Of a DNA stretch of 64,000 bases, positions 3,865 to 20,313 are shown piece by piece (within the stretch, counting starts at the first letter, position 1; every line of letters begins with the position of its first letter). The DNA lies in IMG/VR virus record IMGVR_UViG_3300032053_000019, positions 34,440 through 98,439 of that record; one strand, 5' to 3'. Origin of the DNA: a virus. Both the position numbers and the translations under genes were made by a program. Under the pieces are notes generated by a model. It did no database searches. It was given only the letters and a program-made list of their open reading frames with translations, and was not told where the DNA came from.

Positions 3865-4068
3865 ATGCTCCCCGTTGATCAATTAGGCGGACTGGCCGGG
3901 ATCCCACAAGGGTCACGATGGGAGTTCCTGGGCGATCTCAAGACTCGGCAGATGAGCTATCCTATACATCCTCTCTGCCGCGCCTGCGCCAGCGACTGCA
4001 AGGTTCACGACGCCAAGGGGCTGATCGTGTTCGTCTGCCATGCCTTTAAGAAACCTAACCATAGATAA
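3865..4068 (+). CDS. Small Cys-containing hypothetical protein (67 aa)
   Basis: ATG 3865 is preferred over GTG 3859 because GAGGAG sits five bases upstream, and the junction is again TGATCATG. Four cysteines (CRACASDC and a later C) could bind a metal. No family was recognised. Confidence 0.55.
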   Translation: MLPVDQLGGLAGIPQGSRWEFLGDLKTRQMSYPIHPLCRACASDCKVHDAKGLIVFVCHAFKKPNHR

Positions 4069-4164
4069 AGGGGAATGGTGGAGAAGTGACAAAGGCAAAG
4101 ACATCCGAAAGGATAATCAACTCATCATCACCAATCCACCATTCCTATTTTTTAAAGAAATCTC

Positions 4165-4193
4165 TTGATTTTTGTTTTGAGTTGACTTATAAT
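4165..4193 (+). promoter_or_regulatory. Sigma-70-type promoter P2
   Basis: TTGATT (4165-4170) and TATAAT (4188-4193) are separated by 17 bp in an AT-rich gap. Transcription would start near 4200, just ahead of the short reading frame at 4220 and the helicase gene. The rest of the gap 4069-4164 shows nothing convincing. Confidence 0.7.
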
Positions 4194-4219
4194 TATGACT
4201 CAATGAGGAAGGAGGCACG

Positions 4220-4330
4220 ATGTCAGTCCTATTAAGTATCACCGCTAATGCGGAATTGACTTTCTCATCTTTGCCTCCTCAGGGATTGCTCGTGCCTCCT
4301 ATCCTTCCTTTTCTTCGGAGTATAGTGTGA
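4220..4330 (+). CDS. Short leader-type peptide (36 aa) upstream of helicase
   Basis: ATG 4220 has a strong AAGGAGG site and follows promoter P2. The peptide is hydrophobic and Leu/Pro-rich. Its TGA stop overlaps the GTG start of the helicase (GTGA at 4327-4330), so translating this peptide would bring ribosomes to a helicase start that has no good site of its own. A leader role is inferred. Confidence 0.5.
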   Translation: MSVLLSITANAELTFSSLPPQGLLVPPILPFLRSIV

Positions 4331-5736
4331 CCTATAAGATCACTCTCGGCAACGTCTTCTCAGAAATGAATGACTACCCAACGGAACTGGAGCAAAGACT
4401 TGCTATTGCCCATCCCAATTTTTGGTTTAGTCCACAATACAAAATGCATGTATGGGACGGGAAAACCCACTTCCTTAAACTAACTCCGACAGTTCACTTC
4501 CCCACGGGTCTCCTTTTCATCGTGGAGGAGTTCCTCAAAGAGAAGGGTCTGGACTATGAACTCATTGATCCTCGCATGCCGATCAAGTATTCCGATGGCA
4601 TGTTAGCTCCAGTTTCCCCCGATCTACTGAATGGTATTACCCTCCGGGAGTATCAGATTACCGCGATTGAGGAAGCAATCCGAAAAAGGCGGGGCGTTCT
4701 TGAACTGCCCACCGGGTCAGGCAAGACCGAAGTAGCCGCAGGTATCATTAAACTCCTTAATCGGCCCACACTCTTTTTGGTACACACGCAGGACCTCTTA
4801 CATCAGACCGCCGAACGATTCACCAACCGCCTTGACATTCCGATTGGCAAGATCGGGGATGGTGAATACGATATAGAAAAACGATGCGTTGTTGCGACCA
4901 TTCAATCTTGCCATGCCCGCCTCAAGTCGAAGGAACAAGACAAGCGAACTGAGATAAAACAATTACTGGAGCGGGCCGAAGTAGTCTTCCAGGACGAAGT
5001 GCACCACGCCAGCGCGAGTACGTGGTACAGCATCGGTCAGAAAACCTTGTCGGCAAGGTTCCGATTCGGATTGTCCGGAACTGTCCTTCGCCGAGACGAA
5101 CTTTCAAACATGAAGATGTTAGCTCTCTTCGGTGAACCGATCTATACTAAACGGACAATGGACTTAGTTGACGATGGATATCTAAGCAAGATTCAGATCA
5201 CTATGATTGATAATCCTGAAGTGGTAGAGGGTACTTCCTGGTCGGACATTTACTTAAACGGTATTGTCAAGTCTGAGTCCCGGAATAAGATGATAGTTGA
5301 TCAAGCCGAGACGGCTTTCCGAGAGAATAAACGAGTTCTACTACTGATTAGGTATATTGATCATGGAAAGACCCTAACTCGTCTGCTTAACGAGCAGAGG
5401 AGTATTCCTACCGTATTCTTGAGTGGACAAAGTGGACGTGATGATCGTAAGGAGCGAAAAGAAGAGTTTAATGAGAATGGAAACTTCATTTTAATTGCCA
5501 GTACAATTTATGATGAAGGGATTGATCTCCCCGAAGTGAATGTCTTAATCATAGCCTCTGGTGGATTAAGTGAAGTCAAAACAATACAAAGAGTAGGACG
5601 TGGTTTGAGAAAGAAGAAGGATGGTTCAACTCTTCAAGTCTTTGACTTTGAGGATAGTTCGGATTATTTGATCAAGCATTCGAAGGAGCGCAAACAAGTT
5701 TATATTCAGGAAGGATTCTTAGGTGTGGACGAGTAA
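4327..5736 (+). CDS. UvsW-like SF2 DNA helicase
   Basis: This is a 469-residue superfamily 2 helicase. Walker A is PTGSGKT at 128-134, motif II DEVHH at 223-227, motif III SGT at 250-252 and motif VI QRVGRGLR at 421-428. The N-terminal ~100 residues resemble the DNA-binding part of phage UvsW/RadD-type helicases. The family unwinds branched DNA (R-loops, stalled forks) and helps switch from origin- to recombination-dependent replication. The start is GTG 4327, coupled to the leader peptide. Its last codons form the left arm of the first hairpin of the array at 5722. Confidence 0.92.
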   Translation: MTYKITLGNVFSEMNDYPTELEQRLAIAHPNFWFSPQYKMHVWDGKTHFLKLTPTVHFPTGLLFIVEEFLKEKGLDYELIDPRMPIKYSDGMLAPVSPDLLNGITLREYQITAIEEAIRKRRGVLELPTGSGKTEVAAGIIKLLNRPTLFLVHTQDLLHQTAERFTNRLDIPIGKIGDGEYDIEKRCVVATIQSCHARLKSKEQDKRTEIKQLLERAEVVFQDEVHHASASTWYSIGQKTLSARFRFGLSGTVLRRDELSNMKMLALFGEPIYTKRTMDLVDDGYLSKIQITMIDNPEVVEGTSWSDIYLNGIVKSESRNKMIVDQAETAFRENKRVLLLIRYIDHGKTLTRLLNEQRSIPTVFLSGQSGRDDRKERKEEFNENGNFILIASTIYDEGIDLPEVNVLIIASGGLSEVKTIQRVGRGLRKKKDGSTLQVFDFEDSSDYLIKHSKERKQVYIQEGFLGVDE

Positions 5737-5792
5737 GATACTGGCAAGAGCGTCCTTAAGGACCAAGGTAGATTCGTCTGCTCGTCCACTTC
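5722..5792 (+). repeat. Array hairpin unit A (71 nt)
   Basis: The left arm 5722-5735 pairs with 5779-5792 at 13 of 14 positions. The core GTGGACGAG/CTCGTCCAC is perfect. The arms enclose exactly 43 bases (5736-5778) that begin AGA and end GTC. The left arm overlaps the helicase stop codon. Inside the loop GTCC TTAA GGAC can form a small hairpin. This is the first of seven like-sized units around the IS110 recombinase. Confidence 0.7.
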
Positions 5793-5803: not shown

Positions 5804-5880
5804 CAAAGACGAGTTAATGATCAAGGGAATGAACACCCCCAGTGGCATGAGTCGGACCAGTCGTTAACTCGTCCGCTTTG
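5804..5880 (+). repeat. Array hairpin unit B
   Basis: GACGAGTTAA (5808-5817) pairs perfectly with TTAACTCGTC (5864-5873). The stem extends outward as CAAA/TTTG (5804-5807/5877-5880) past a three-base bulge. The loop is 44 bases if closed at the T-G pair 5818/5863, or 38 if three further inner pairs form. A TTTGTATAAT-like spacer precedes it. Confidence 0.65.
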
Positions 5881-5892
5881 CATACGAGAACG

Positions 5893-5963
5893 AAGAGGGG
5901 TTGGTAAGTCAAATAGAGCATCAGCTTTTGCGTTAAAGACTGGAACAACTACTAATCCTTTCT
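5893..5963 (+). repeat. Array hairpin unit C (71 nt)
   Basis: Arms 5893-5906 and 5950-5963 pair at 13 of 14 positions, several as G-T wobbles. The loop (5907-5949) is exactly 43 bases and starts AGTCAA, as in unit D. It ends just before the ribosome binding site (AAGGA, 5976-5980) of the recombinase. Confidence 0.6.
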
Positions 5964-5986: not shown

Positions 5987-7105
5987 ATGAGTATCTATGC
6001 CATTGATTGGCACACGAAGAAAGAGATTCCAATTTATGACGGGAAGAAGATCAAGAAGATTCCGAACTCCCCTTTCTCTATTGCCGAATGGGCAAAGGGA
6101 CTTGAAAAGAGAAAGCATATCTTTCTCTTTGAGGCTGGTGGCGGTGACTTCATGAAGATTCTTCTTCACCGTCAAGGGCATACTGTCCTCACCATGCCTG
6201 GTATACATACGAAGCAGTTTCGTGATCGCATTGATGTTGAGAAGACAGACGATACGGACGTGTCACTGATCTACGAATTATATACAAAGTGGGTGGAGGA
6301 GACAGTGGGTCGAGCATCTTCGGGGACAACCGTCCGGTCATCTTCCCACCCACTTTCCTTTTACCCCTTCTCCGAACTGGACTGCACCATCTCATCACTT
6401 CGACTTTTTGTTCGTCGACGCGACTTGGTTCAGGAAGAACGGATACGAGAGAACAACCGGGCTCTGATCTTCAACCTGACCTACTCTCTAACGAACACAC
6501 CAAAGAAAGAAATTGATAAAGTTCAGGAACTTCAAAAGACACGAGTTGAGGATTATAAAAAGGAAGAGGCAAGTCTGACCAAGCAGGTCAATCGTATGCT
6601 AGGCACTCTACCAATCTGGACTGACAAGTGGAAAAAGATCAAGGGGTTTGGCCCTAACATTGTTGGGGGTTTGATCGCCGAACTTGGTAGATGCCAAGCT
6701 CAGACCAGGGCCCAGGTGCGAATGTTCACCAGTATGGTTCCTCGTGAAGCGAATCTTACTGAGAGTGGAAAGCGTCGGCGCAACTCGAATCGTATTCGTG
6801 GGTTGCTATATGATGCAGTTGAGCAGATCATCAAGCAGAAGACTCCGGGGTGGAATGAATGGTACTACAGGTTAAAGGAAAAGTATGCCTCACTTCATCC
6901 TGACTGGTCCAAGGGCAAGGTGGATAACTATGCCCGTCGTGTGCTGAAGACACAACTGGCCATTGAATTCTGGTCTGATCTTCGGCACTATGGTATGTTG
7001 CCAAACAGTGGGGGAGTTAGTGTGACAAACAAACTTACGGTTTCAAAACTAAGAGTTTCCTCATCCGCCTCCTCCTCCCTTTCTTCTACCGAGGCACAAG
7101 TATGA
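5987..7105 (+). CDS. IS110-family (DEDD) transposase/recombinase
   Basis: This 372-residue protein has both IS110 domains. The N-terminal RuvC-like DEDD domain shows D7 (AIDWH), E49 (FEAGGG), D88 and D91 (KTDDTD). The C-terminal Transposase_20 domain shows IKGFGPNIVGGLIAELG (218-234) followed by ESG, whose S260 aligns with the catalytic serine of IS621. All five expected catalytic residues are therefore present. IS110 enzymes recombine DNA guided by a bridge RNA encoded at the element's end. The linker after D91 is longer than in IS621 and contains a Ser-rich stretch (RASSGTTVRSSS) encoded by hairpin unit G. The C-terminal 30 residues are a Ser-rich tail. It has ATG 5987 with AAGGA upstream. 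Three hairpins precede and three follow the gene. Confidence 0.88.
   Translation: MSIYAIDWHTKKEIPIYDGKKIKKIPNSPFSIAEWAKGLEKRKHIFLFEAGGGDFMKILLHRQGHTVLTMPGIHTKQFRDRIDVEKTDDTDVSLIYELYTKWVEETVGRASSGTTVRSSSHPLSFYPFSELDCTISSLRLFVRRRDLVQEERIRENNRALIFNLTYSLTNTPKKEIDKVQELQKTRVEDYKKEEASLTKQVNRMLGTLPIWTDKWKKIKGFGPNIVGGLIAELGRCQAQTRAQVRMFTSMVPREANLTESGKRRRNSNRIRGLLYDAVEQIIKQKTPGWNEWYYRLKEKYASLHPDWSKGKVDNYARRVLKTQLAIEFWSDLRHYGMLPNSGGVSVTNKLTVSKLRVSSSASSSLSSTEAQV
6286..6356 (+). repeat. Array hairpin unit G inside the IS110 gene (71 nt)
   Basis: AAAGTGGGTGG (6286-6296) is perfectly complementary to CCACCCACTTT (6346-6356). With two further G-T pairs and one A-C mismatch the arms are 14 nt and the loop 6300-6342 is exactly 43 nt, starting AGACA and ending ATC like units E and F. 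It encodes the extra linker of the recombinase, so it appears to be a unit inserted in frame. Confidence 0.6.
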
Positions 7106-7174
7106 TCAAGATTGGTAAGTCAATGACACTTTCGTCCTACGAGATAGACGCAGTATCGGCTACCAATCTTGATC
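7104..7174 (+). repeat. Array hairpin unit D (71 nt)
   Basis: GATCAAGATTGGTA (7104-7117) and TACCAATCTTGATC (7161-7174) form a perfect 14-bp stem around exactly 43 bases (AGTCAA...GGC). The left arm begins within the recombinase stop codon. Confidence 0.8.
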
Positions 7175-7186
7175 TCTTTTGTAAAC

Positions 7187-7257
7187 AAGATGGGTTGGAA
7201 AGACAAGGGAGTTTCCATTTCTTTAAACATGGTGTAGCGCATCTTCTAATCCATCTT
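7187..7257 (+). repeat. Array hairpin unit E (71 nt)
   Basis: Arms 7187-7200 and 7244-7257 pair at all 14 positions, two as G-T wobbles, around exactly 43 bases (AGACAA...ATC). It starts 83 bases after unit D, with a 12-base spacer TCTTTTGTAAAC. Confidence 0.78.
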
Positions 7258-7269
7258 TTCTCTGCTAAC

Positions 7270-7342
7270 AATCTTGAACCAGTAAGACCAGTTCACCTGC
7301 ACCACCATAGGCAATGTCAAAGCCATCTACTGGTTCAAGATT
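7270..7342 (+). repeat. Array hairpin unit F (73 nt)
   Basis: AATCTTGAACCAGTA (7270-7284) and TACTGGTTCAAGATT (7328-7342) form a perfect 15-bp stem around exactly 43 bases (AGACCA...ATC). It starts 83 bases after unit E, with a 12-base spacer TTCTCTGCTAAC. The ribosome binding site of the next gene follows directly. Confidence 0.8.
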
Positions 7343-8821: not shown

Positions 8822-9142
8822 ATGCCCAAAGCAAAAAAGGTAACCAAAGTAAAAGTACCAAAGCAATTGGTACAAGGAAAGAGAAGTACCGAGCGGCAGG
8901 AGTTTTTCAATAAACATGCCCTTACGATCGGATCCGTCTATGCCGAAGTCAAGTCGTGGAAGGCGACCTCGGCAAAAACAAAACTCCCCCAGTTAATGGT
9001 TGGTTATGTCTTGGCCCGCCTGCTTCCCGATCTGATCAAAGACAAGTATATCCAACGTATGGTCAGTTGTGACTGCTCGCCTGAAGCGGTGATCGCCCCG
9101 ACTCCTCCTGTAGAGGAACAGCCAAAGGCAGAGTCAGTCTGA
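8822..9142 (+). CDS. Hypothetical Lys-rich protein (106 aa)
   Basis: ATG 8822 follows GAGGAGG. The N-terminus is Lys/Val-rich and basic, the middle is helical, and the C-terminus is a Pro/Glu/Ala tail. A CDC cysteine pair lies near residue 81. It overlaps the queD start. No family was recognised. Confidence 0.6.
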   Translation: MPKAKKVTKVKVPKQLVQGKRSTERQEFFNKHALTIGSVYAEVKSWKATSAKTKLPQLMVGYVLARLLPDLIKDKYIQRMVSCDCSPEAVIAPTPPVEEQPKAESV

Positions 9143-9561
9143 TGGTTGAACTCTTCTATGAAGCAAAGTTCGATGCGGCCCACCGGTTAATGCACCACGA
9201 AGGCAAGTGCAAGAATCTTCATGGTCATACTTGGAGGGTCTCAATCGGAGTAGCAGGGAATCCAGATCCCAAGACGGGAATGGTAGTGGACTTCGCTATC
9301 CTAAAACTCTCGGCGATCAGTTTGGTCATGCACTACTTTGATCATGCTACCATCCTAAACTCCGCAGATCGTGAGTTGTGGATGGCTCTTGAGAAATACA
9401 AGTTGTTTCTCATTGATGGTGAACCCACCTGCGAGAATCTGGCCCGGATGATCTTCGATAAGATCAAAGAAAAACTTGACTGTTCACTTTTCACTTTCGT
9501 CCTGTCGTCAGTTACTGTGTGGGAATCAGAGACTTCCTCGGCCCGTTACTGCGGGCTCTAG
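9142..9561 (+). CDS. queD: 6-carboxy-5,6,7,8-tetrahydropterin synthase QueD
   Basis: The 139-residue protein matches the QueD/PTPS-I family. Zinc ligands are H14, H27 and H29 (LHGH), the nucleophile is C23 (CKNLHGH), and D67-H68 and E98 complete the active site. It turns dihydroneopterin triphosphate into 6-carboxytetrahydropterin, step two from GTP to preQ0. FolE (12259), QueE (32554) and QueC (17487) supply the other steps. ATG 9142 overlaps the previous stop. Confidence 0.93.
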   Translation: MVELFYEAKFDAAHRLMHHEGKCKNLHGHTWRVSIGVAGNPDPKTGMVVDFAILKLSAISLVMHYFDHATILNSADRELWMALEKYKLFLIDGEPTCENLARMIFDKIKEKLDCSLFTFVLSSVTVWESETSSARYCGL

Positions 9562-9589
9562 TATAAAATCTCGAACAAGGAGTAAACAG

Positions 9590-9805
9590 ATGAGTAAGGT
9601 ACTGACACCAAGTCAACTGGTGGAGGAACGAGTGGGGCTTCTTGAAGGCGACTCACTCCCAACAAAGGTCATGAAGGAAAACTTAGTGGCTTTCCTTCAT
9701 GAGTTTTCCTACTTCACTGTCGCGGAGAAGCAAGCAGTTTTTGAGCATCTTGAGCTGGTCTCCCCCAATGCTAGAAGGGCCTTAGTAAGAGTATTCTCGA
9801 TCTGA
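9590..9805 (+). CDS. Hypothetical protein (71 aa)
   Basis: ATG 9590 follows an AAGGAG. The product is acidic and helical with no recognised motif. Upstream in-frame codons overlap queD and lack a ribosome binding site, so this start is preferred. Confidence 0.55.
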   Translation: MSKVLTPSQLVEERVGLLEGDSLPTKVMKENLVAFLHEFSYFTVAEKQAVFEHLELVSPNARRALVRVFSI

Positions 9806-9807
9806 TC

Positions 9808-9978
9808 GTGAAGGAATACAAAGACACTCTCGGCATTATTAACGAGATTCCTGGTGAGTGCATTGATACCAGAAACCGAATCAAGGCCTGCCGAGAGTTC
9901 CTTTTTCGCAAGTTACAGGAACAGGAAAAAGGTACTAGTGATAAAAAAGTTCCTATGGAAAATTGTGATGGTCAATAA
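9808..9978 (+). CDS. Small hypothetical protein (56 aa, GTG start)
   Basis: GTG 9808 begins two bases after the previous stop. The product is charged (KEYKDTLG, RNRIKACREF, KLQEQEKG) and looks like a genuine helical phage peptide, but the ribosome binding site is weak. Confidence 0.4.
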   Translation: MKEYKDTLGIINEIPGECIDTRNRIKACREFLFRKLQEQEKGTSDKKVPMENCDGQ

Positions 9979-10150
9979 CAAGGTGGTGTTTAATTATAAT
10001 AAGGCCTCATTGGGCCCTGATGGGCTCATCTTGTTTATAGGGATTCTATATTTTCTATTTTCTCAATGGGACACGATAGAGCGCTTTAGCGCTCTAGCGG
10101 GACCCAGTCCGAAACGGACCACGCGGCAAGGCCGCGTACAGGAACTTTAG
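9968..10150 (+). CDS. Possible small membrane protein (60 aa)
   Basis: The frame from ATG 9968 has one hydrophobic segment (LILFIGILYFLFS) followed by a basic tail. Its 3' half is made of the three tight hairpins at 10077-10137, so the frame may be incidental to a structured RNA. The ribosome binding site is weak. Confidence 0.25.
   Translation: MVNNKVVFNYNKASLGPDGLILFIGILYFLFSQWDTIERFSALAGPSPKRTTRQGRVQEL
10077..10137 (+). other. Three consecutive tight hairpins
   Basis: Three perfect stems follow one another. TAGAGCGC/GCGCTCTA is 8 bp with loop TTTA (10077-10096). GTCCG/CGGAC has loop AAA (10107-10119). ACGCGGC/GCCGCGT is 7 bp with loop AAG (10121-10137). They are GC-rich in an AT-rich surround and end 12 bases before the next start codon. 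No T-run follows, so they are not an intrinsic terminator. They could be a structured 5' leader, a protein-binding site or an origin element. Confidence 0.6.
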
Positions 10151-10899
10151 TGACAGAAAAAAGATTTGCTCCTGCTGACCTCTCAGGAACTGAGATGGTA
10201 GGGTTCCTTTCAACCGAAAGTATTTACAAGCAAATTGCCACCCAGTTCAATGAGTTTTGTTGGTACTACCAAAAGCGTCCTAGTTGGTTTTACAAAGGCA
10301 CTATGTTGAGATCAGCCAGTTCGCGAGCAAAGGTCGAGGAGCAAATGCGAAAGTTGATTCTCCTATCAGTTGCCCTTGAAGCGGAGATTACGATCTTCAT
10401 GAAGGCCCAGTTCGAAATGTTGGTGCCTTATTTTTCAGCTAGGAAGATTCCGGTTCGTTTCGAAATGATGATTACTGACAAAGCCATTGATCGGTTCCTT
10501 CGGTACAAAGAAAGGATCAAGGCTCAGTTCAAACTCGAGTCAGATCGTGATCGGGAGTTCTACAAGGTTCCGAAGAAGGATCTGGTCACGGCGATCTTCA
10601 ACTCGGGAGAGGTATACCATTCGGTCCTGATCAAGAAACAGGAGCGACTGGGACGACTGCCGGAACCGGAGGAGGCATTGGAAATACTGGAGGTCATGGC
10701 ACGGGCAGGTATGGTAACCCGCCTTTACGTTGCCACCTCCCCGTTACTAAAGATGGTTGATGGGTGGTCGGAATTCTTAACCAAGCATATTTCGGACACC
10801 TGGGGGATGCTAACAAAAGAGGAATCATACGAACTGCAGAAAGTTCGGGATGAGTTAACCAAGACGATTGAAGAAAGTGAGGTAGGAAAGTATGTCTGA
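10150..10899 (+). CDS. Hypothetical protein upstream of helicase (249 aa)
   Basis: The GTG start at 10150 follows AGGA. The protein is largely helical and charged, without recognised motifs. Its position immediately before, and overlapping, the DnaB-like helicase would suit a replication accessory or helicase-loader role, but no AAA+ or known loader signature is visible. Confidence 0.65.
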   Translation: MTEKRFAPADLSGTEMVGFLSTESIYKQIATQFNEFCWYYQKRPSWFYKGTMLRSASSRAKVEEQMRKLILLSVALEAEITIFMKAQFEMLVPYFSARKIPVRFEMMITDKAIDRFLRYKERIKAQFKLESDRDREFYKVPKKDLVTAIFNSGEVYHSVLIKKQERLGRLPEPEEALEILEVMARAGMVTRLYVATSPLLKMVDGWSEFLTKHISDTWGMLTKEESYELQKVRDELTKTIEESEVGKYV

Positions 10900-12256
10900 T
10901 CAAGAGACCTATACAAAAGATTTTACAGAAGAAATACAACAGCGTATTGTTGCTATGATGTTTTATGATCATGAGGCCTTCCTCATGGTGAAGGAGATAG
11001 TTAAGCCGGAATACTTTGAGAATCCTGTACTGGCTGATCTGGTTCGTCTCATGCTGAAGTACCATGATAAGTACAGTCGATGTATAGACATGGAAGAGTT
11101 GACTCAGGAACTCCTGACGTTTCTTGATAATTCAAAGCGTCCTCTTCCAAAGGAAGTTTATGTGGAGCAGTTTATTGCTCTTCTTACCGATGGTGCTGAC
11201 AAAAGTTATAGATACGTTCTAGATCAGGTGGTCGCATGGACTCAGTACCAGTTGGTCAAGATCGCAATCCTGAAAAGTATCAACCTACTGCAAAAGAAAA
11301 GGGACTATCCGGGGATACTTAAGGAAATTAAGGATGCGGTGTCCATCGGGGAGTCGACGCATGAGATGGGTTCGTTTTACTTTGAGGAACTGGAACAACG
11401 ATTGGCAGATCGGAAAGGTGGTTGGTGCAGGGGGGAAATTTCTATTCCGACAGGAATACCAATTCTTGATCGGCATCTAGGTGGTGGTTTGGCAAAGGGG
11501 GAGTTGGGTATTATTATGGGCCCAACGAAGAGAGGCAAGACAATTACTCTGGTAAACTTTGCCCGAGGTGCTTTACTTAAAGGCAAAAACGTCCTGCACA
11601 TCGGAATGGAAAGTAGTGCACGACGAACGATGGTCCTTTACGACGCCCACTTTTCGGGAGTGTCAAAAGAGAACTTGAAAGATAACGAGGATGTGATCCG
11701 AGAAAAGCTGGCGGAGACTCTGTCCACGATGCAGTGTGGTGTTCTTGTGGTAAAGAACTTTCCTCCTTTGAAGTGCTCCGCCGCTACGATTGAGGCCCAT
11801 CTTCAAAAACTTCGGAACTTGAAGAACCTCCAGGTAGACGTATTACTGCTAGACTACCTGGGATTGATGACCACGGCAGGCAAGCTACTTGATCGTGATG
11901 GAGGCCTATACTCGAAGTTGGGCCAGATCACGAAGGAGTTGTTGGCAGTTGCACAAGAGTATGATGTTGCGATCTGGTTAATACATCAGGCCAACCGGGG
12001 CACTTTGAGCAGAGGTGGTGAGAAGGAAGCGATTGGAATGGTGGACTCTGGGGACTCTATCGAACCCATGCGAGATGCCGATATTATCCTAACATTCAAT
12101 CAGTCGGAGGAAGAGGCGAAGATGGAGGCCGATAATGGGTACCAAGACTGCAGGATCTTTTCGGCTGGTGGTCGAGAAGTTGCTGACAAGTGGAGCATTC
12201 CATTAAAGATAAACAAGGGCAAGTGCCTGATCGTTGAGCCTGGAATGGAGATGTAG
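10892..12256 (+). CDS. DnaB-like replicative helicase
   Basis: The 454-residue protein has an N-terminal helical domain and a RecA-fold core. Walker A is GPTKRGKT (210-217), the Walker B strand is VDVLLLDYLGL, and a late arginine-bearing loop follows. It matches T4 gp41/DnaB hexameric 5'-3' helicases, which unwind the fork and recruit primase. The primase is encoded separately at 34220. It overlaps the previous gene by eight bases. Confidence 0.9.
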   Translation: MSDQETYTKDFTEEIQQRIVAMMFYDHEAFLMVKEIVKPEYFENPVLADLVRLMLKYHDKYSRCIDMEELTQELLTFLDNSKRPLPKEVYVEQFIALLTDGADKSYRYVLDQVVAWTQYQLVKIAILKSINLLQKKRDYPGILKEIKDAVSIGESTHEMGSFYFEELEQRLADRKGGWCRGEISIPTGIPILDRHLGGGLAKGELGIIMGPTKRGKTITLVNFARGALLKGKNVLHIGMESSARRTMVLYDAHFSGVSKENLKDNEDVIREKLAETLSTMQCGVLVVKNFPPLKCSAATIEAHLQKLRNLKNLQVDVLLLDYLGLMTTAGKLLDRDGGLYSKLGQITKELLAVAQEYDVAIWLIHQANRGTLSRGGEKEAIGMVDSGDSIEPMRDADIILTFNQSEEEAKMEADNGYQDCRIFSAGGREVADKWSIPLKINKGKCLIVEPGMEM

Positions 12257-12258
12257 TC

Positions 12259-13212
12259 ATGCAGAAAGAAATATTGACCACTGAGCAGGTTTGGAGAATG
12301 GCCAAAGGTATCGTTGAAGATAATGTTTGCTTTCCTCCTGACATGATCATCGGCATCTCGCGGGGAGGAATCTACCCAGCCATGCTGGTTCAACGAATGC
12401 TATCGGAACGAACCTCTCAGAAATTTGACTTTCGTATTGTTGACCCATTCACTTCGGGCTGGATGGATGAGTTCATGGGAAAAAGAATTCTCCTCGTTGA
12501 TGACATTTGGGATACAGGCGCCACGATGCGATACTTTATAGATGAGGCAAAGAAGAAGGGACTTGCTGTTATACCAGCGGCCCTTGTTGTTAAGACGGAG
12601 GGGGAGAGAAAGCAGGAAGTTTGGTTTACCTTTCCCTGGGAAACGGAATCCGACGAACCCGGTGGACGGAAGCAGGCGACCATCACCTTACTCCGATCAA
12701 TCGGGGAGGACCCTCTGCGTGAGGGGCTTCGTGACACTCCTCGACGTGTTGCTAAAATGTGGGACGAACTGACCTGTGGTTATACCCAGGATCCGAAGAC
12801 CCTGTTAGATACCTCCTTCTCTTCTGAGTTGTATGATGAGATGGTCGTTCTGAAAGACATCAAGTTCTACTCAACTTGTGAGCATCACATGCTTCCCTTT
12901 TATGGTAAGGTTCACTTCGCCTACCTGCCCGATAAAAAAGTCGTGGGAGTTTCAAAGATTGCCCGTCTGGTCGAATGTTTCTCTAGGCGCCTTCAGATTC
13001 AGGAACGGATGACCGTGCAGATCGGGAAGGCGTTTGAGGCGGCGGTTGCTCCACTGGGGGTTGGTGTCTTGGTGGAGGGCGTGCACTTGTGCATGATGAT
13101 CAGGGGGGTGGAAAAGGAAAATGCCAAGATGGTCACCAACTATCTTAGTGGTAGTTTCCGTGATCGTCCGGAGGCTCGGGCGGAGTTCCTGAAGATCGTG
13201 GAGGCGACGTGA
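12259..13212 (+). CDS. folE: Phosphoribosyltransferase-GTP cyclohydrolase I fusion (FolE)
   Basis: Residues 1-130 form a type I phosphoribosyltransferase with the PRPP loop RILLVDDIWDTGAT (76-89). Residues ~135-317 are GTP cyclohydrolase I, with zinc ligands C207 and H210 (STCEHHMLPF) and C278 (VHLCMMIRG). FolE converts GTP to dihydroneopterin triphosphate, the entry to preQ0. The fused domain could act in purine or deazapurine base salvage. The fusion is unbroken, with no internal start or frameshift. It precedes the radical SAM gene, whose GTG start overlaps its stop. Confidence 0.9.
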   Translation: MQKEILTTEQVWRMAKGIVEDNVCFPPDMIIGISRGGIYPAMLVQRMLSERTSQKFDFRIVDPFTSGWMDEFMGKRILLVDDIWDTGATMRYFIDEAKKKGLAVIPAALVVKTEGERKQEVWFTFPWETESDEPGGRKQATITLLRSIGEDPLREGLRDTPRRVAKMWDELTCGYTQDPKTLLDTSFSSELYDEMVVLKDIKFYSTCEHHMLPFYGKVHFAYLPDKKVVGVSKIARLVECFSRRLQIQERMTVQIGKAFEAAVAPLGVGVLVEGVHLCMMIRGVEKENAKMVTNYLSGSFRDRPEARAEFLKIVEAT

Positions 13213-14216
13213 AAAACCAGTACCTGATGTCCAGCGTCTTTCTCACCAGACGGTGTCCCATGCACTGTGCCTACTGCAGTCTGCGGGACTCAAAGTTGGT
13301 CGACAAAGAATTGACTGCCAAGCAATGGGCCACCGCGTTTGAGGAACTTGACAAGGTGGGTTGTTCCTTTCATCTGATCCTGGGGAACGAACCCCTCCTT
13401 CTGAAAGGTCTGGTTGATCTGGTATGGTGGATGCGTGGACGAACCCCTTACGCAATCTATACAAGTGGCTATCCCTTGCTGATTGATAAGCACCTTCCGG
13501 CTCTGGTCGAAGCTGGTCTCCCGAATCTTAGTGGTGGGTGTGATAAGTTGATTACTGACCGCTCGCCTGCAACGGATATCGAGAGGAAGTCCAACTATGT
13601 CTTTAACGCACTTCAAAGGGCACGGGGTCTGGGGGTGAAGGATCTTCAGGGAACCATCACCCTATCAAAGTTGAATCTTGATAGTGTGGTTGATACTATC
13701 ACTACCCTCCATGAGGCGGGAATCTGGAGTGGGTTCAATATTATCCATTACAATACGGATGGGCAGTTCGATTTCTTCCCTGAGAAAGAGGCGATCAAGG
13801 ATCTCCTCTTTACTGAGGAGGACTGGCCGAAACTTCGTGAGGTGATGGGTCAGATTGTTTCAATGATAAAGTCAGGTGACTATATGATTCACCCACCTGC
13901 CGAATACTTCCAAGGGATTCTTGATCAGGGAGTTAATCTATCCTGGCACTGCACTCATCCTCTGGTCCTGTCGGTTGACTCGGATGGGAAGATGCGGTGT
14001 TGTGGTTATAGGCGCGGCACACGGTCACCTAACTATAGTGTCTTGAAGTTGAGCAAAAACTATGAGAAGTTTTTGGCGGACAATGCCCAGGATCGGAAGG
14101 AGTGCCCAGGATGCTATTGGTCATGCTACTGGATGGCTGAGTATTATTTTGCTAAGGATCCTGACTTCGGTATAAAAGTTTTCCAGTCTCACGCGACTAG
14201 GAGGAATGATGAGTAA
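13209..14216 (+). CDS. Radical SAM protein of unknown substrate
   Basis: The CxxxCxxC cluster motif is at C16, C20 and C23 (RRCPMHCAYCS). A second Cys-rich region near the C-terminus (CCGYRRG, then CPGCYWSC) suggests a SPASM-like auxiliary cluster. At 335 residues it is longer than QueE and clearly distinct from the QueE at 32554. The gene lies between folE and two SDR genes that lead to Gat-QueC, so a role in DNA base hypermodification or cofactor chemistry is inferred. Its start, GTG 13209, overlaps the folE stop. Confidence 0.82.
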   Translation: MKNQYLMSSVFLTRRCPMHCAYCSLRDSKLVDKELTAKQWATAFEELDKVGCSFHLILGNEPLLLKGLVDLVWWMRGRTPYAIYTSGYPLLIDKHLPALVEAGLPNLSGGCDKLITDRSPATDIERKSNYVFNALQRARGLGVKDLQGTITLSKLNLDSVVDTITTLHEAGIWSGFNIIHYNTDGQFDFFPEKEAIKDLLFTEEDWPKLREVMGQIVSMIKSGDYMIHPPAEYFQGILDQGVNLSWHCTHPLVLSVDSDGKMRCCGYRRGTRSPNYSVLKLSKNYEKFLADNAQDRKECPGCYWSCYWMAEYYFAKDPDFGIKVFQSHATRRNDE

Positions 14217-14928
14217 AGAAACAATCGTCATCACTGGTGCATCCACTGGTATCGGGCGGGCGGTCCTACTTCATTTGTTCGAGAAGTTTCCGGACGCCCG
14301 GTTCATAACAGCAAACCGGAAAATAATTTCTAAGGAGGAGTTGCCTGGGGATATCAAACTTATACAGTTTCCGATTGACCTGGGGGAGTGGGATAAGCTG
14401 TCTACATTGTGTAGATGGTTAGATGGATTGATTATTGATATTCTGGTGAACAATGCAGGGACGATGCCTTTTGCCGCTATAGGTTCAGTGGGTGTGGATG
14501 ATTATAACCAGACTCTGGATGTTAATCTACGAGCTCCCTTCTTCCTATCTCAGGCGTGCATTAGGCACATGCCGGGTGGTGGTCGAATCATCAATGTTGC
14601 TTCAATCGCCGGCGGGCCTTGGGTAGATCCGGATAGTTCAATCATACCTTATAGCATCAGTAAGGCCGGTGTGATCATGTTGACGAGACAGTTGGCAAAG
14701 GCCTTTCCCACACTGCGGATCAACTCAGTTTCACCTGGGTTGGTGGCAGGTACTAACATTGTTGGAGGTGAGCCCACACCGCAGTCCCTGATTGACACGG
14801 TCCCGATAAAGCGGGAGGTGACCACACAGGAGGTTGCCCGTCTGATCGGATTCCTATGCTCAAAGGATGCCGATTACATCACGGGTCAAGATATTGTCAT
14901 AGATGGTGGTAAGACTCTTTGGGGATGA
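14206..14928 (+). CDS. Short-chain dehydrogenase/reductase, copy 1
   Basis: The 240-residue classical SDR has the cofactor motif TGASTGIG (near 10-17), NNAG (near 82), catalytic Ser, YSISK (YxxxK) and the C-terminal DYITGQDIVIDGG typical of FabG-like enzymes. The family oxidises or reduces alcohol/carbonyl pairs with NAD(P). It overlaps the radical SAM gene and is followed immediately by a paralogue. The start is one of two adjacent ATGs behind GGAGG. Confidence 0.9.
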   Translation: MMSKETIVITGASTGIGRAVLLHLFEKFPDARFITANRKIISKEELPGDIKLIQFPIDLGEWDKLSTLCRWLDGLIIDILVNNAGTMPFAAIGSVGVDDYNQTLDVNLRAPFFLSQACIRHMPGGGRIINVASIAGGPWVDPDSSIIPYSISKAGVIMLTRQLAKAFPTLRINSVSPGLVAGTNIVGGEPTPQSLIDTVPIKREVTTQEVARLIGFLCSKDADYITGQDIVIDGGKTLWG

Positions 14929-15656
14929 AGATGCTAAAACTAACACGAAACCTTATTGTTATCACCGGAGCGACTAGTGGTATTGGGTATGCTATCTTGA
15001 GAAGATTATATCATCAGTTTCCAGTTGCCCACTTTGTCAATATTGACAAGATACCCCTAGATATCCATGACCTTCCTATCGGATGTAATCTTTTACAATT
15101 AACTGCTGATCTCCGACTTGCCGGCGATCTGGTTTGGGCGTGTGATCAGATAGGCCTTGTCTCCCGACCGGTGGACCTCTTGGTGAATAATGCAGGGATA
15201 TGTCCCTTCCGAAGATTTGAGGAACTGAGTCCTAAGGAGTATGCGGAAACCATGGATGTTAATCTTCGCGCACCATTCTTCCTTTCACAAGTGTGTATTG
15301 CTCAGATGCCCGATGATGGACGGATCATTAACATAGCGTCAACCTCTGGGCATCGTCCGGAGACGGAACCCGAGTTGGTTGACTATAGTCTAAGTAAGGC
15401 CGGTGTGATCATGTTGACAAAGTCCCTGGCGAAACTTTATCCTCGACTTCGTATTAACTCTATCTCTCCGGGGTTTGTGGCGGGAACTGGACTATCTGGT
15501 GTTGCTGGTCTCCCTCCAGAATTGGCAAGTTTGGTTCCACTGAAAAGGTTTTGTCGTCCGGAGGAGGTTGCTGAAGTAGTTGCGTTTTTATGCTCTGACC
15601 AGGCTGATTATATCACTGGACATGACCTGGTGATTGATGGTGGGAAGATCCTTTAG
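14925..15656 (+). CDS. Short-chain dehydrogenase/reductase, copy 2
   Basis: A second classical SDR has TGATSGIG, NNAG, YSLSK and DYITGHDLVIDGG. It shares blocks such as VNLRAPFFLSQ and SKAGVIMLT with copy 1, so the pair looks like a tandem duplication that has diverged. ATG 14925 overlaps the preceding stop (ATGA) and is preferred over TTG 14919. Catalytic residues are intact in both. Confidence 0.9.
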   Translation: MKMLKLTRNLIVITGATSGIGYAILRRLYHQFPVAHFVNIDKIPLDIHDLPIGCNLLQLTADLRLAGDLVWACDQIGLVSRPVDLLVNNAGICPFRRFEELSPKEYAETMDVNLRAPFFLSQVCIAQMPDDGRIINIASTSGHRPETEPELVDYSLSKAGVIMLTKSLAKLYPRLRINSISPGFVAGTGLSGVAGLPPELASLVPLKRFCRPEEVAEVVAFLCSDQADYITGHDLVIDGGKIL

Positions 15657-15665
15657 GAGGAAACC

Positions 15666-15860
15666 ATGATACAACTTATTTATCTTGAGCAGGCACCCCA
15701 AACAAAACGACACTATCCCTGTTTTTATTATGTAGACGGGAAGGGAACTTATCATGCAGTTGCTCATGTTATAAAGGCACGGGGAGCTGACAAAGCAATG
15801 CGAGGGGCATTCGAATCGTTAGTGGGTTCTTTGTCAAAGTTAATACCAGAGGGGAAGTAG
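15666..15860 (+). CDS. Small hypothetical protein (64 aa)
   Basis: ATG 15666 follows GGAGGAAACC, a strong site. The product is basic with an aromatic middle (HYPCFYYVDGKGTYH). It sits between the SDR pair and Gat-QueC in the same transcript. No family was recognised. Confidence 0.6.
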   Translation: MIQLIYLEQAPQTKRHYPCFYYVDGKGTYHAVAHVIKARGADKAMRGAFESLVGSLSKLIPEGK

Positions 15861-15861
15861 G

Positions 15862-17484
15862 ATGTGCGGCATAGTGGGTGTTTGGAATCGGGATGGAGCC
15901 TTTGATTGGGATACATACGATGAGTTGTTCTCTGCGGCGGAGAACCGAGGACAGGATGGATTTGGGATCACTTTGGTTCCTGATATCCGAAAGAAGGAGA
16001 TACTGACCTTCAAGTCCACTAAGACATACTCTGTCGACAAGTGGGCTGTCAAGAATTGGTTAATGGATCCTGCCCCGGTAAAGGGCAGTTTGATCATTGC
16101 GAACTTCCGCGCCCAACCAGAGACGGAAGTTGAAAGTTCCGAGAAGAATCTTCAGCCGATTGTATGTACAAAGGAGGGACTGATCCTTTCCCATAATGGT
16201 TCAGTGGCAAATTTCGTGGTGAACAAATACTCCGACTATCAAACAAAGATTGATAGTGAAGTCATTCTCAAGTCCTATCAAACGAGTCGTAATATGGGGA
16301 AAGTTATGGAGGAGATGGTGGGTGGGTTTGCTTTTCTTCTCTATGATCAAGAAGTCAATCGTCTGTTCTGTGTCAATGACTTTAAGCCGCTGGCGATCTG
16401 TTGTATCAGAGGAAAGGGAGTTATACTCCACTCATGTCTTGATGTAATTGAATCAGTAACCAGGAAGATCACTGATGCTCCCCGGTGCGGCATGAACGTG
16501 TGGGAGGACTGGTATTATCATTGGCAGGATGGCAACACCATTCGGGAGATTGATCTTGATAGTGGAATGGAAAGAATCACGACCTTCCAACCCAACCGAT
16601 ACCATCCGGTGTGGAAGCCTTCGCCGAAGATCAATAGCGAGTCCGTCCTGGTCTCTTCATCGGGTGGGATTGACAGCGGCCTGTCTGCGTTCGTCATGAG
16701 GCGTCTGGGATACCGAGTGACTCTGGTGAACTTCAACTATGGTCAGCGGGGCTGGGAGGCAGAGAGTTTGGCCTCCAGGCGCCTTGCTGATTACATGGGT
16801 TCGGAGTGGGTTGGCATTGATCTACAGAACATCTTCAAGGGAGATCCTTCGTCATTGATTAGACCGACCATTCCTATCGAGACAGGGACGGAGAGTTACA
16901 TCAAGACAACGACTGCGTGGGTTAGCAATCGCAACGCAATTTTCCTATCCATCCTTGCCTCGTTGGCGGAACAGCAGATCCTGAGTAACAAGTCGGATCG
17001 AGTTCACCTCGTTACCGGAATGAGTAATCTCACCGAGGAGGGCTTCTATCCTGACAACTCAGAGTACTTCGTTCGTGCCTTCCTGGAGATGACTAAATAC
17101 TCAACACTAGTCGGTGATCGTATCACTTACGTTTCGGTTATGCAACAGATTATGAAGTCCGAGGAGTGGATCCTCGGTAAGGAGCTAGACTTTCCCTTTG
17201 GGATGACAGTGAGTTGTGACCAGCCCTACGTGAACGAGAAAAAGGAAATACTTTTGTGTCGGCAGTGCGGTTCAACTCTTCTTAGCATCTGGGCCGCCGA
17301 GATGGCTGGTGTTGAGGATCCCAGACAGTTTTATGACTTAGAGGGACTACCCGTCATGGAAAAGAGGATTACTAAAGGAAGTAAAAATAAGGTTGACTAT
17401 GCGGACCTGGTCCGGCGAATCAAACTGCCTAGTAAAAAGGACTATGATAGACTGGCTGATCTTTTGATGGGTCCGAGGAATTGA
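15862..17484 (+). CDS. Gat-QueC: glutamine amidotransferase-QueC fusion
   Basis: Residues 1-~245 are a class II glutamine amidotransferase. The N-terminal MCGIVGV gives catalytic C2, followed by NRGQDGFG and the HNGSVAN loop. Residues ~260-540 are QueC-like, with PP-loop SSGGIDSG (266-273), a VNFNYGQRG strand and a reduced cysteine motif (CDQPY, then CRQCG). Crenarchaeal Gat-QueC forms the amidine of archaeosine from the preQ0 nitrile in tRNA, and the same fusion occurs in phages with dG+ DNA. It overlaps the start region of the stand-alone QueC gene. Confidence 0.9.
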   Translation: MCGIVGVWNRDGAFDWDTYDELFSAAENRGQDGFGITLVPDIRKKEILTFKSTKTYSVDKWAVKNWLMDPAPVKGSLIIANFRAQPETEVESSEKNLQPIVCTKEGLILSHNGSVANFVVNKYSDYQTKIDSEVILKSYQTSRNMGKVMEEMVGGFAFLLYDQEVNRLFCVNDFKPLAICCIRGKGVILHSCLDVIESVTRKITDAPRCGMNVWEDWYYHWQDGNTIREIDLDSGMERITTFQPNRYHPVWKPSPKINSESVLVSSSGGIDSGLSAFVMRRLGYRVTLVNFNYGQRGWEAESLASRRLADYMGSEWVGIDLQNIFKGDPSSLIRPTIPIETGTESYIKTTTAWVSNRNAIFLSILASLAEQQILSNKSDRVHLVTGMSNLTEEGFYPDNSEYFVRAFLEMTKYSTLVGDRITYVSVMQQIMKSEEWILGKELDFPFGMTVSCDQPYVNEKKEILLCRQCGSTLLSIWAAEMAGVEDPRQFYDLEGLPVMEKRITKGSKNKVDYADLVRRIKLPSKKDYDRLADLLMGPRN

Positions 17485-17486
17485 TC

Positions 17487-18200
17487 ATGGTAAAAAGTAG
17501 ACGTCCCGTCCTGATGTTCAGTGGGGGGCTTGACTCATTGATTGCCTGGTTTGCTTTGGGCAAGCCAAAGGCAGTTCATGTTCACTTGGGTCATCGCTAC
17601 GGAGCATCGGAATACTTTACGTCTATGAGCATTGCGAAGCGATTAGGCATGGACTTGATCATTGAGAAACGATTGTACCTCGGTGATCAGGAAGCACCTG
17701 ATGCCTATATCCCAATGCGTAATCTTTTTCTTGCCATGATTGGTGCACTTTACGGGGACGATATTTACTTGGTATTCCAAAAAGGTGAGCAGTCCATTCC
17801 TGATCGTTCGCCTGAGTTCCTGGATAAGGCGTCAGAGATGCTATCGTTCCTTAATGAACGAAGGATCGTGGTGGACAGTCCCTTTCATAATATGACGAAG
17901 TCAGGCATGATCAGGTGGTACCTTGATCAAGGCAACGAAAAGTGTCCGGTTGATGTTCTCTATAAGTCATTCTCCTGCTTTGGATCGGACTCAACAAAGG
18001 TTCCTTGCGGAGAGTGTGCCGCCTGTTTCAGGCGATGGGTAGCCTTTGAGAATAATGGACTGAGTCTTGCCCTTCGTGCAGATATCAAAGAGTGGGCAGG
18101 AATTCCTGGTTACATTAAACGGGTGAAGGCCGGAGAGTATGATCTTGATCGTGCTAGGGAAATTGAGGGGGTCTTAAGGAGGCATGGATTATGGAAGTAA
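17487..18200 (+). CDS. queC: 7-cyano-7-deazaguanine (preQ0) synthase QueC
   Basis: The PP-loop is SGGLDS (12-17), YIPMRNLFL is family-typical, and the zinc site is C164, C174, C177 and C180 (CGECAACFRR). QueC uses ATP and ammonia to convert 7-carboxy-7-deazaguanine to preQ0. ATG 17487 is chosen over TTG 17481 because GAGGAA lies six bases upstream and the junction is again TGATCATG. Having both this enzyme and Gat-QueC separates preQ0 synthesis from amidine formation. Confidence 0.92.
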   Translation: MVKSRRPVLMFSGGLDSLIAWFALGKPKAVHVHLGHRYGASEYFTSMSIAKRLGMDLIIEKRLYLGDQEAPDAYIPMRNLFLAMIGALYGDDIYLVFQKGEQSIPDRSPEFLDKASEMLSFLNERRIVVDSPFHNMTKSGMIRWYLDQGNEKCPVDVLYKSFSCFGSDSTKVPCGECAACFRRWVAFENNGLSLALRADIKEWAGIPGYIKRVKAGEYDLDRAREIEGVLRRHGLWK

Positions 18201-19282
18201 AAGTTTCCGGAGTGGAAGTTGAACGAGTCTTGAGTGCGGTATTGAGGTTTACTGAACCAAACAATTTTCTTCCAGCAAGTGATTTGGTAATTTTTGATCG
18301 TATATACATAATTACCACCATGGTTTGGGGGGGATGCGTTCACCTCAGTAGTTTCTTCAAAACGGAGAAGCCGCTAGGTCTTCCTGTCGACTTGCTAAAG
18401 AGGGTTCGTGCGGGTCTTGAGGGTAGGTTAGACAAGGAGGTAACTATCATTCTGGACGAGGTAGCGGAAGACATTTCCTTTAGGGTGGGACGTGATCGTA
18501 GTGTGGTTCGTGCCCAAACAGCACTGAAGTATACAACCCCCGATCGTATAAAGTCGGATGATGTCGTCTTGTATGAGGCCACTGGTGATGTAGTTGGTGA
18601 TCTTCAGAAGTTGTTGTTTTCCTGTTCTGACAATCCCTATGATGTGAAGTTTAATGGTGTCTGGTGGTCGGAGAATGATCATGCCTGGTATGCGTCGGAT
18701 AACTTTAGGATAACTCGTTTTCCATCGAAATGTAAGTTGGGTCTTGAGGGGAACTTTTTTGTGCCCTCAACCTTTATTGAAAAGTCCGGTGGTTCAACGG
18801 ATAAACTTGAGTTTGTGGGACTTGATGAAAACTCTTGTTTGTTTTTCTTCAAGGACTATATTACATCGTTCCTGGTGATGGAACACAAGATGCCTCCCTT
18901 TGCCTCAGCCTTTGCGGGTGCAAGGGAGGAGGCATTATCCTCAGAACAAAGATTTACAATTAACATGCCGAAAGAGGATGTTGCACGATATCGAAAAACA
19001 TTCCGAGAGGCAGGATCTGCTCCGGATATCAACATATACAAACGAGACGATGGGGTCTATATGCTGGACGCCCAGTATAAGCATACCCAAACGGGTAGTT
19101 TTGAGACGGAGGTTGATCTAGTCGATGTTTCGGGGGAGATCGCCTTTACGATTGATGGTACCTTCCTGTTGGATGCTCTTGAGCGGTTTAGTACTTTTTA
19201 CCTGGTGGAGAAAAAGCACATCTACGCAAAGAACGAGGAGTCAGGAATGGAGCAACTTATTGCATGGAAGATAAGAGGATAA
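18191..19282 (+). CDS. Putative DNA sliding clamp (DnaN-like)
   Basis: The 363-residue length fits bacterial DnaN. Features compatible with the clamp fold are three repeated alpha/beta blocks and late IDGTFLLDALERF and LIAWKIRG segments like the third clamp domain. Similarity is weak and no single diagnostic motif exists. A clamp would fit the adjacent DNA polymerase. ATG 18191 lies seven bases after AAGGAGG. Confidence 0.5.
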   Translation: MEVKVSGVEVERVLSAVLRFTEPNNFLPASDLVIFDRIYIITTMVWGGCVHLSSFFKTEKPLGLPVDLLKRVRAGLEGRLDKEVTIILDEVAEDISFRVGRDRSVVRAQTALKYTTPDRIKSDDVVLYEATGDVVGDLQKLLFSCSDNPYDVKFNGVWWSENDHAWYASDNFRITRFPSKCKLGLEGNFFVPSTFIEKSGGSTDKLEFVGLDENSCLFFFKDYITSFLVMEHKMPPFASAFAGAREEALSSEQRFTINMPKEDVARYRKTFREAGSAPDINIYKRDDGVYMLDAQYKHTQTGSFETEVDLVDVSGEIAFTIDGTFLLDALERFSTFYLVEKKHIYAKNEESGMEQLIAWKIRG

Positions 19283-19284
19283 CT

Positions 19285-20313
19285 ATGGAAGAGATCCGAG
19301 ACTTCAAGGTCTTCTTCGTTATGACTTCGGGGGCACTGGAGCGCATGACCCGATTTGTTCAGCAGGGAATACTTCGTCGTATCCTATCCAGTTTTGTATA
19401 CAAGGATCTCATTGATAAGTTGGCGAAGAATCTTGGTCCAGAGCACACAAAGAAAATGGACATCTTGATTGACTCCGGTGCCTTTACTGTTATGACTCAA
19501 GGGAAGGTAATAAACATTAGTGAGTATGTAGATTATCTGCGGGCCTTTACTGCGGAGGATCGGTGGGCCAGTGTCTATGCCTTCAACCTTGACGTAATTC
19601 CGGAGTTGGATAAGTTTGGCCATCTTAGTCACGAGACAGAGGAGAAAGCCGCCGAGGCGTCATTCAAGAATTATCTTTACTTAACTGAACAAGCAAAGTT
19701 GGACTTCATCATTCCCGTTTATCATTATCGAGAAAATCTTAAGTGGTTGAAGAAAATAGTGGAGTCAGGTTGTCAGTACTTTGCTTTCGGTGGAATGTCC
19801 GGGAAGGTCAAGAGTTCGGCGGTAAAGAAAAAGGCCTTTTCAGAATTGTTCCTCCGTCTTGAGGAGTATGGATATAAGGGCAAGGTTCACATGTTGGGCC
19901 TTTGTATGCCGGAGGTCCTTTGTTCAAATGCCTGGTATTCAGTGGATGCCACTATTACGAAGTCGGCTGGGTATGGTCATATCTATTTGTTTGACGAAAA
20001 GTCAAAGAACAAAGTTTCAGTATGCCCGGTTTCGCCGATTAGGGGAAGGCATGAGTCAGTCATGGGCGCTCACTCCTCAGACTCCTATCTTGCTGATCAA
20101 CTAAAAGTGATTGGTATGGGTGATATCACTATTGAGGAAATGACCACAAGTTTCTGGGCAAGAGTTGAGGCCTGTTTCCGATCATGGTCAATGTTTGAAG
20201 ATTTCGTAAATCGTCGACGAAAGGAACTTGGACGGAACTGCGTTTATGATATCGGGATACAACGTGATGTTCATAGTTTTTGGAATGGGTTTGGTCATGA
20301 CGATAAAGCGTAG
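19285..20313 (+). CDS. dpdA: DpdA-type DNA 7-deazaguanine transglycosylase
   Basis: The 342-residue protein belongs to the tRNA-guanine transglycosylase superfamily in its phage DpdA form. Residues 63-68 read DSGAFT (nucleophile/substrate Asp region). FAFGGMSGK forms the base-binding loop, and a late segment has HMLGL and SVDAT. DpdA replaces guanine in DNA with a 7-deazaguanine such as preQ0. ATG 19285 is chosen over ATG 19264 because AAGAGGA lies six bases upstream. Gat-QueC, QueC, the clamp candidate and DNA polymerase flank it. Confidence 0.85.
   Translation: MEEIRDFKVFFVMTSGALERMTRFVQQGILRRILSSFVYKDLIDKLAKNLGPEHTKKMDILIDSGAFTVMTQGKVINISEYVDYLRAFTAEDRWASVYAFNLDVIPELDKFGHLSHETEEKAAEASFKNYLYLTEQAKLDFIIPVYHYRENLKWLKKIVESGCQYFAFGGMSGKVKSSAVKKKAFSELFLRLEEYGYKGKVHMLGLCMPEVLCSNAWYSVDATITKSAGYGHIYLFDEKSKNKVSVCPVSPIRGRHESVMGAHSSDSYLADQLKVIGMGDITIEEMTTSFWARVEACFRSWSMFEDFVNRRRKELGRNCVYDIGIQRDVHSFWNGFGHDDKA

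Follow-up and report, generated by a model that had tools for sequence, protein, structure and literature searches.

In the phage locus described here, a single stretch of DNA appears to encode part of a protein, a linker, and a guide RNA as well. It lies in the virus record IMGVR_UViG_3300032053_000019 (98,439 bases), of which the window analysed is a stretch of 64,000 nucleotides (nt), positions 34,440 to 98,439; coordinates below are those of the window. The gene in question, tas (5987..7105, plus strand), encodes 372 amino acids arranged as a RuvC/DEDD domain, a linker, a coiled coil, a Nop/Tnp-like domain and a disordered tail, and the description that fits it best is that of a TasR-like protein (RuvC + Nop) accompanied by a guide array of TIGR stem-loops. 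One hairpin unit of the array, U4 (6286..6356, plus strand), falls in frame within the gene at codons 100-124, in the linker between the RuvC domain and the coiled coil. The RNA-guided TIGR-Tas family was described recently; its arrays have so far been sought beside the gene, and scans inside effector genes may reveal more guides. The case for U4 can be read directly from sequence: the unit itself, its match to its neighbours, its recurrence in relatives and the predicted disorder of the peptide it encodes.

A hairpin unit within the tas coding sequence

An earlier note on this DNA, made from the letters alone, had proposed a 14-43-14 hairpin at 6286-6356, in frame in the open reading frame (ORF) 5987-7105, with a loop starting AGACA and ending ATC. 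The hairpin is real and has this layout. Its stem holds 11 Watson-Crick pairs, one A-C mismatch and two G-U pairs, its loop opens with AGACA and closes with CATC, and its two spacers are GTGGGTCGAG and ACCGTCCGGT. A covariance model built only from U1, U3, U5, U6 and U7, with U4 held out (model R1), recovers U4 at full length and at exactly these coordinates, with 33.1 bits and E=2e-6 (98.9 kb, both strands). A simpler score, made of 14 fixed pairs and five motif bases and applied to both strands of the whole record, places U4 5th among about 197,000 positions, and its six best-scoring places are exactly the five units outside the gene and U4. Synonymous-codon shuffles of the ORF, which keep the protein and the codon usage, can be used to ask how often coding sequence reaches this score anywhere in the ORF, and 4 of 3000 equalled U4. 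In its boxes U4 obeys the AGNCA / C-R-N-C code of the array around it, and neither of its spacer slots nor any of its four boxes has been lost.

The array to which U4 belongs has units on both sides of the gene as well as within it, all on the plus strand. The 71-nt layout consists of a 14-nt stem arm, the AGNCA box (5), spacer A (10), a loop of 14, spacer B (10), the C-R-N-C box (4) and the second 14-nt stem arm. The six units of this length (U1 and U3-U7) align without gaps, with A15, G16, C30, C54, C57, T58 and C60 invariant. Their stems are 96% paired, and 12 of the 14 pairs have changed on both sides, against 6.0 in shuffles (0/500). The five units used in R1 are U1 (5722..5792), across the stop codon of an upstream helicase ORF (4327-5736); U3 (5893..5963), immediately 5' of the tas start codon; U5 (7104..7174), which starts at the tas stop codon and has a perfect 14-bp stem; U6 (7187..7257); and U7 (7271..7341), the array's final unit, also with a perfect 14-bp stem. 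U2 (5806..5875) is somewhat irregular (held-out R1 E=0.013; RNA fold z=-2.77). A tentative second in-ORF unit, U8 (7008..7077, about codons 341-364), lies in the C-terminal tail, which is not present in relatives. Held out from R1, it scores 15.8 bits (E=0.11 over 99 kb, 0.00086 over the remaining ORF alone); with the geometry TGACA-10-14-10-CATC its boxes and spacing fit, and the middle of its stem is mismatched. Scanning the array for terminators found none, promoters were at chance level, and an Rfam scan gave only SNORD75, also at chance level (E=0.44).

The peptide encoded by U4 is one that the protein could tolerate. Relative to the relatives L014 and L015, described below, the net insertion is about 18 residues and not 24, since codons that flank it double as part of the stem arms; for instance, the 3' arm encodes Ser-His-Pro-Leu at the conserved P122. 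The AlphaFold2 model of the window protein has a predicted local distance difference test (pLDDT) score of 79.7, with values below 50 at residues 111-122 (U4) and 341-372 (the tail with U8). For the relative L009, pLDDT falls below 50 at residues 42-55 and 118-158, the stretches encoded by its own three units. The unit-encoded peptides are thus predicted to be disordered, and the low pLDDT at these stretches suggests that units are placed where the protein tolerates a floppy loop. The earlier note's view of the unit as a module that is translated, placed in the linker that joins RuvC to the helical region, is supported.

Recurrence of in-gene units in relatives

A direct protein query found no match in IMG/VR nor among 50,697 phage records. 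Relatives were recovered only through IMG/VR scans with an alignment that included a TasR fragment, and the genome collections yielded only distant Nop or IS110 proteins (L020, L021). The resulting set comprises L008, L009, L014 (= L016), L015, L023 and the fragment L017. L008 and L009 are 54% identical to each other, and each is about 34-37% identical to the window protein. In all relatives stem-loop units lie around the tas gene; their boxes are GCTA and TG, their spacers are 9 nt long, and across 19 of these units both-side changes occur at 8 of 8 stem pairs.

Two of the relatives carry units inside the gene. In L008, and likewise in L009, three units lie in frame: a RuvC-domain loop holds one, and the linker holds the other two, where U4 sits in the window gene. 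In L014, L015 and L023 the linker is short and the ORF contains no units, except for one in each that straddles the tas stop codon (L014 4377-4431; L023 4923-4977; L015 1631-1691). The alignment proposed by the earlier note therefore came out as it expected: the linker stretch is absent from some relatives and filled with units in others, though it is about 18 residues long and not the roughly 24 suggested.

A second covariance model (R2) was built from 19 units of the relatives that lie outside tas ORFs or across their ends, with in-ORF units held out. It finds the in-ORF units of L008 at E=7e-10, 9e-6 and 9e-6 and those of L009 at E=5e-6, 1e-5 and 0.0045. Motif-constrained hairpins number three in the ORF of L008 and three in that of L009, against 0.06 and 0.02 in synonymous shuffles; there are none in the ORFs of L014, L015 and L023. 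Pairing in the in-ORF stems of L008 and L009 is kept through double changes at 5 of 8 pairs, and 0 of 500 shuffles reach the covariation score. These in-ORF units also carry the box code of their own arrays, GCTA / TG, a pattern that would follow if every Tas protein were served by a set of its own. A tree of 7-8 proteins does not place the window protein relative to L008 and L009, and does not separate a single origin of the linker units from repeated ones.

A further feature of the relatives concerns their active sites. In L014 (3452-4384) and L023 (3998-4927) the first RuvC aspartate is replaced (FVKW), yet both have long stem-loop arrays; because of this replacement, these two TasR-like proteins are probably nuclease-dead, judged from sequence.

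Identity of the protein and comparison with known systems

The best sequence match in the PDB is TIGR-TasR 9mty (phmmer E=2.5e-11, both domains covered). A Foldseek search with the AlphaFold2 model also ranks 9mty first (E=6.7e-11, TM 0.65 on target) and IS621 second, with the IS110/IS621 fold matching at E about 1e-9. Profile comparison with hhalign gives 8.9e-51 against five viral relatives and 7e-7 against four IS110 proteins. It is because the PDB, fold and profile matches are nearer TasR-like proteins that this label is used, and the name 'recombinase', given in the earlier note, is not upheld. In NCBIfam the protein scores 62.1 bits on TIGR_Tas_endo and 61.1 bits on IS110, each under its cut-off (curated at 100 bits for NF052498, the TasR equivalog, and 140 bits for NF033542, IS110). 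The relatives score 70-78 bits on NF052498, and Pfam IS110 domain matches of the window protein are also under cut-off. Since the cut-off of NF052498 is not reached, the protein is named 'TasR-like' and not filed as that equivalog.

The RuvC/DEDD residues D7, E49, D88 and D91 align among the relatives and their positions fit the IS621 DEDD pattern. A serine of possible interest is found at codons 260-261 (window 6764-6769), where S260-G261 sits in an extra, low-confidence loop of the AlphaFold2 model. Both MAFFT and hhalign align this pair with a Ser-Gly that is invariant across four IS110 proteins, its spacing from the proline before it being shifted by 3 residues; in IS621 the Ser-Gly loop is the catalytic serine loop (PMC11208158). 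As an alignment result, the correspondence to the IS110 catalytic serine is suggestive only, and the loop is missing from all five close TasR-like relatives.

According to PMC12045711 (Faure et al. 2025), stem-loop TIGR arrays hold pairs of spacers of 8-12 nt between box C/D motifs and are expressed and processed, the Tas protein is needed for tigRNA processing, and a TasR clade with stem arrays is noted. The growth of arrays, the maturation of guides and the targets of guides are left there as open questions. The window locus shares with these arrays a Nop-domain protein (here with an N-terminal RuvC domain) adjoining tandem hairpins, variable palindromic stems, a phage setting and two spacers, with box C/D-like motifs twice in the loop. 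It differs in that units also lie in frame within the effector's coding sequence. That paper places arrays beside the gene and contains no mention that we found of units inside it, although an unremarked example in its supplement is possible. Compared with TasR itself (9mty), the window protein has the same RuvC + Nop order and keeps the RuvC acidic residues, with about 24% identity over the structural alignment, but its linker and tail are longer, both being encoded by hairpin units, and its array is of the stem-loop and not the dual-repeat type. The related Nop-domain logic of box C/D small nucleolar RNAs and Nop5, with tandem guides between C and D motifs (PMC12045711), is also shared, but no kink-turn, L7 or fibrillarin is seen at the window locus.

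Searches for Tas proteins also turned up other phage systems. The TasR query matches about 120 phage records, among them phages of Mycobacterium, Arthrobacter, Gordonia and Rhodococcus (L003-L007) whose Nop-only Tas-like proteins are annotated 'transposase' or hypothetical. In L034 (IMGVR_UViG_3300027888_000004, 3900-4550), a dual-repeat-like TIGR array, in which AGTGAACC alternates with an AAACCC-like repeat, lies immediately 5' of a TasA-like gene that is Nop-only; the viral contigs concerned are large (142-277 kb).

Competing readings, and other features of the window

Several other explanations of U4 can be put forward. The hairpin could be an autoregulatory element, a decoy on the gene's own mRNA that Tas binds, blocking translation or triggering decay, with the spacers unused as guides. 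Given the role of Tas in tigRNA processing, a Tas-recognised unit in the mRNA would tie the fate of the message to the level of Tas, and the units across the tas stop codon in three relatives are consistent with this. However, U4 has two spacer slots and four boxes and not one binding site, the three units in each of L008 and L009 exceed the needs of a simple operator, and the spacers vary between units as guides do, so that we think this unlikely, if worth keeping in mind. Alternatively, the protein could be an IS110-type serine recombinase in which an array of single-loop guides, U4 among them, replaces one two-loop bridge RNA. The DEDD residues, the RuvC and Nop-like Tnp domains, the alignment of S260-G261 with the IS110 Ser-Gly and the 61 bits on the IS110 family model all lend this reading something. 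Nevertheless, an SG pair within a 15-residue loop is not rare, this loop is absent from the close relatives, to which the window protein is far nearer than to IS110, and the locus has one-loop units on either side of and inside the gene, with neither element ends nor a donor/target loop pair seen, and no single two-loop bridge RNA at an element end. This makes a recombinase of this type a rather improbable account.

The suggestion in the earlier note that the unit is mobile or duplicated fares worse. A short insertion sequence or a repetitive extragenic palindromic (REP)-like repeat that landed in frame would explain why the number of in-gene units varies among relatives (0, 1 or 3), but every unit lies within the tas locus. 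The mobile-element reading was rejected because a genome-wide scan of the 98 kb yielded no convincing copy beyond this locus. Neither a target duplication nor a footprint of transposition was found, and the spacers are unrelated among units; as spacers and stems both differ, the units are not recent copies. We regard it as very unlikely. Linkers diverge freely, so a G+C-rich, Ser/Pro-rich linker could happen to fold, and a few synonymous shuffles do reach the U4 score. Yet such a by-product of coding would have to produce the held-out match at exact coordinates, six in-ORF units in two relatives and compensatory changes, and the held-out and recurrence tests already contradict chance, the least credible of these explanations.

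U4 is better read as a guide unit that belongs to a TIGR stem-loop array and happens to fall in coding sequence. We consider it likely that the locus is a phage TIGR-type system in which U4, an array member in frame inside tas, also encodes a disordered linker and yields a guide matured from the tas transcript. Care must be taken with several points that weigh against this. The stem of U4 is the second weakest among the six 71-nt units by the pair and motif score, and the protein stands at 62 bits against the 100 of the Tas family model. Its boxes, AGNCA / C-R-N-C, differ from the UG / CCA of TasR. R2 finds no match in the window, nor R1 in the relatives, and the box codes of the two are therefore distinct. 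When the spacers were compared with the phage's own 98 kb, the best dual-spacer matches had 3 mismatches, equal to shuffled spacer pairings. Finally, the reading has to suppose that a guide matures from tas mRNA and that the in-gene unit is processed.

From this arrangement we infer transcription, processing, DNA targeting and a trade-off between message and guide, which could work as follows. The array and the tas gene would be transcribed together, and a Tas dimer would bind both box C/D-like motif pairs of each hairpin, by analogy with TasR as described in PMC12045711. One 10-nt spacer would pair with one strand of the target DNA and the second with the other strand, and the RuvC domains would nick each strand. 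The in-gene unit would be excised from some tas transcripts, each of which could then serve either as message or as guide source. Since Tas is needed for tigRNA processing, maturing U4 would remove a tas message, a possible feedback between effector and guide. A broader proposal can be offered tentatively: tas may be a dual-coding effector gene whose coding sequence holds guides in frame; these would be translated into disordered linkers and would also mature from the tas mRNA, by a process that depends on the Tas protein. Each transcript would be message or guide, giving built-in feedback, and permissive sites (the RuvC loop, the RuvC/coiled-coil linker and the C terminus) would be reused in diverged phages. 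In-gene units indicate that guide units can settle where a protein tolerates a loop and suggest that they spread as modules by some route, and they raise a conflict between translation and guide maturation.

Elsewhere in the window, a set of genes resembling the preQ0 pathway lies at 9142-20313. It includes a QueD-like gene (9142), GTP cyclohydrolase I (12259), a radical S-adenosylmethionine (SAM) gene (13209), QueC (15862) and a queuine tRNA-ribosyltransferase-like gene (19264); the set suggests that the phage DNA carries 7-deazaguanine modifications. The region 14516-15488 holds two segments, about 735 bases from each other, that share 71-73% identity, as a tandem duplication of a gene would leave.
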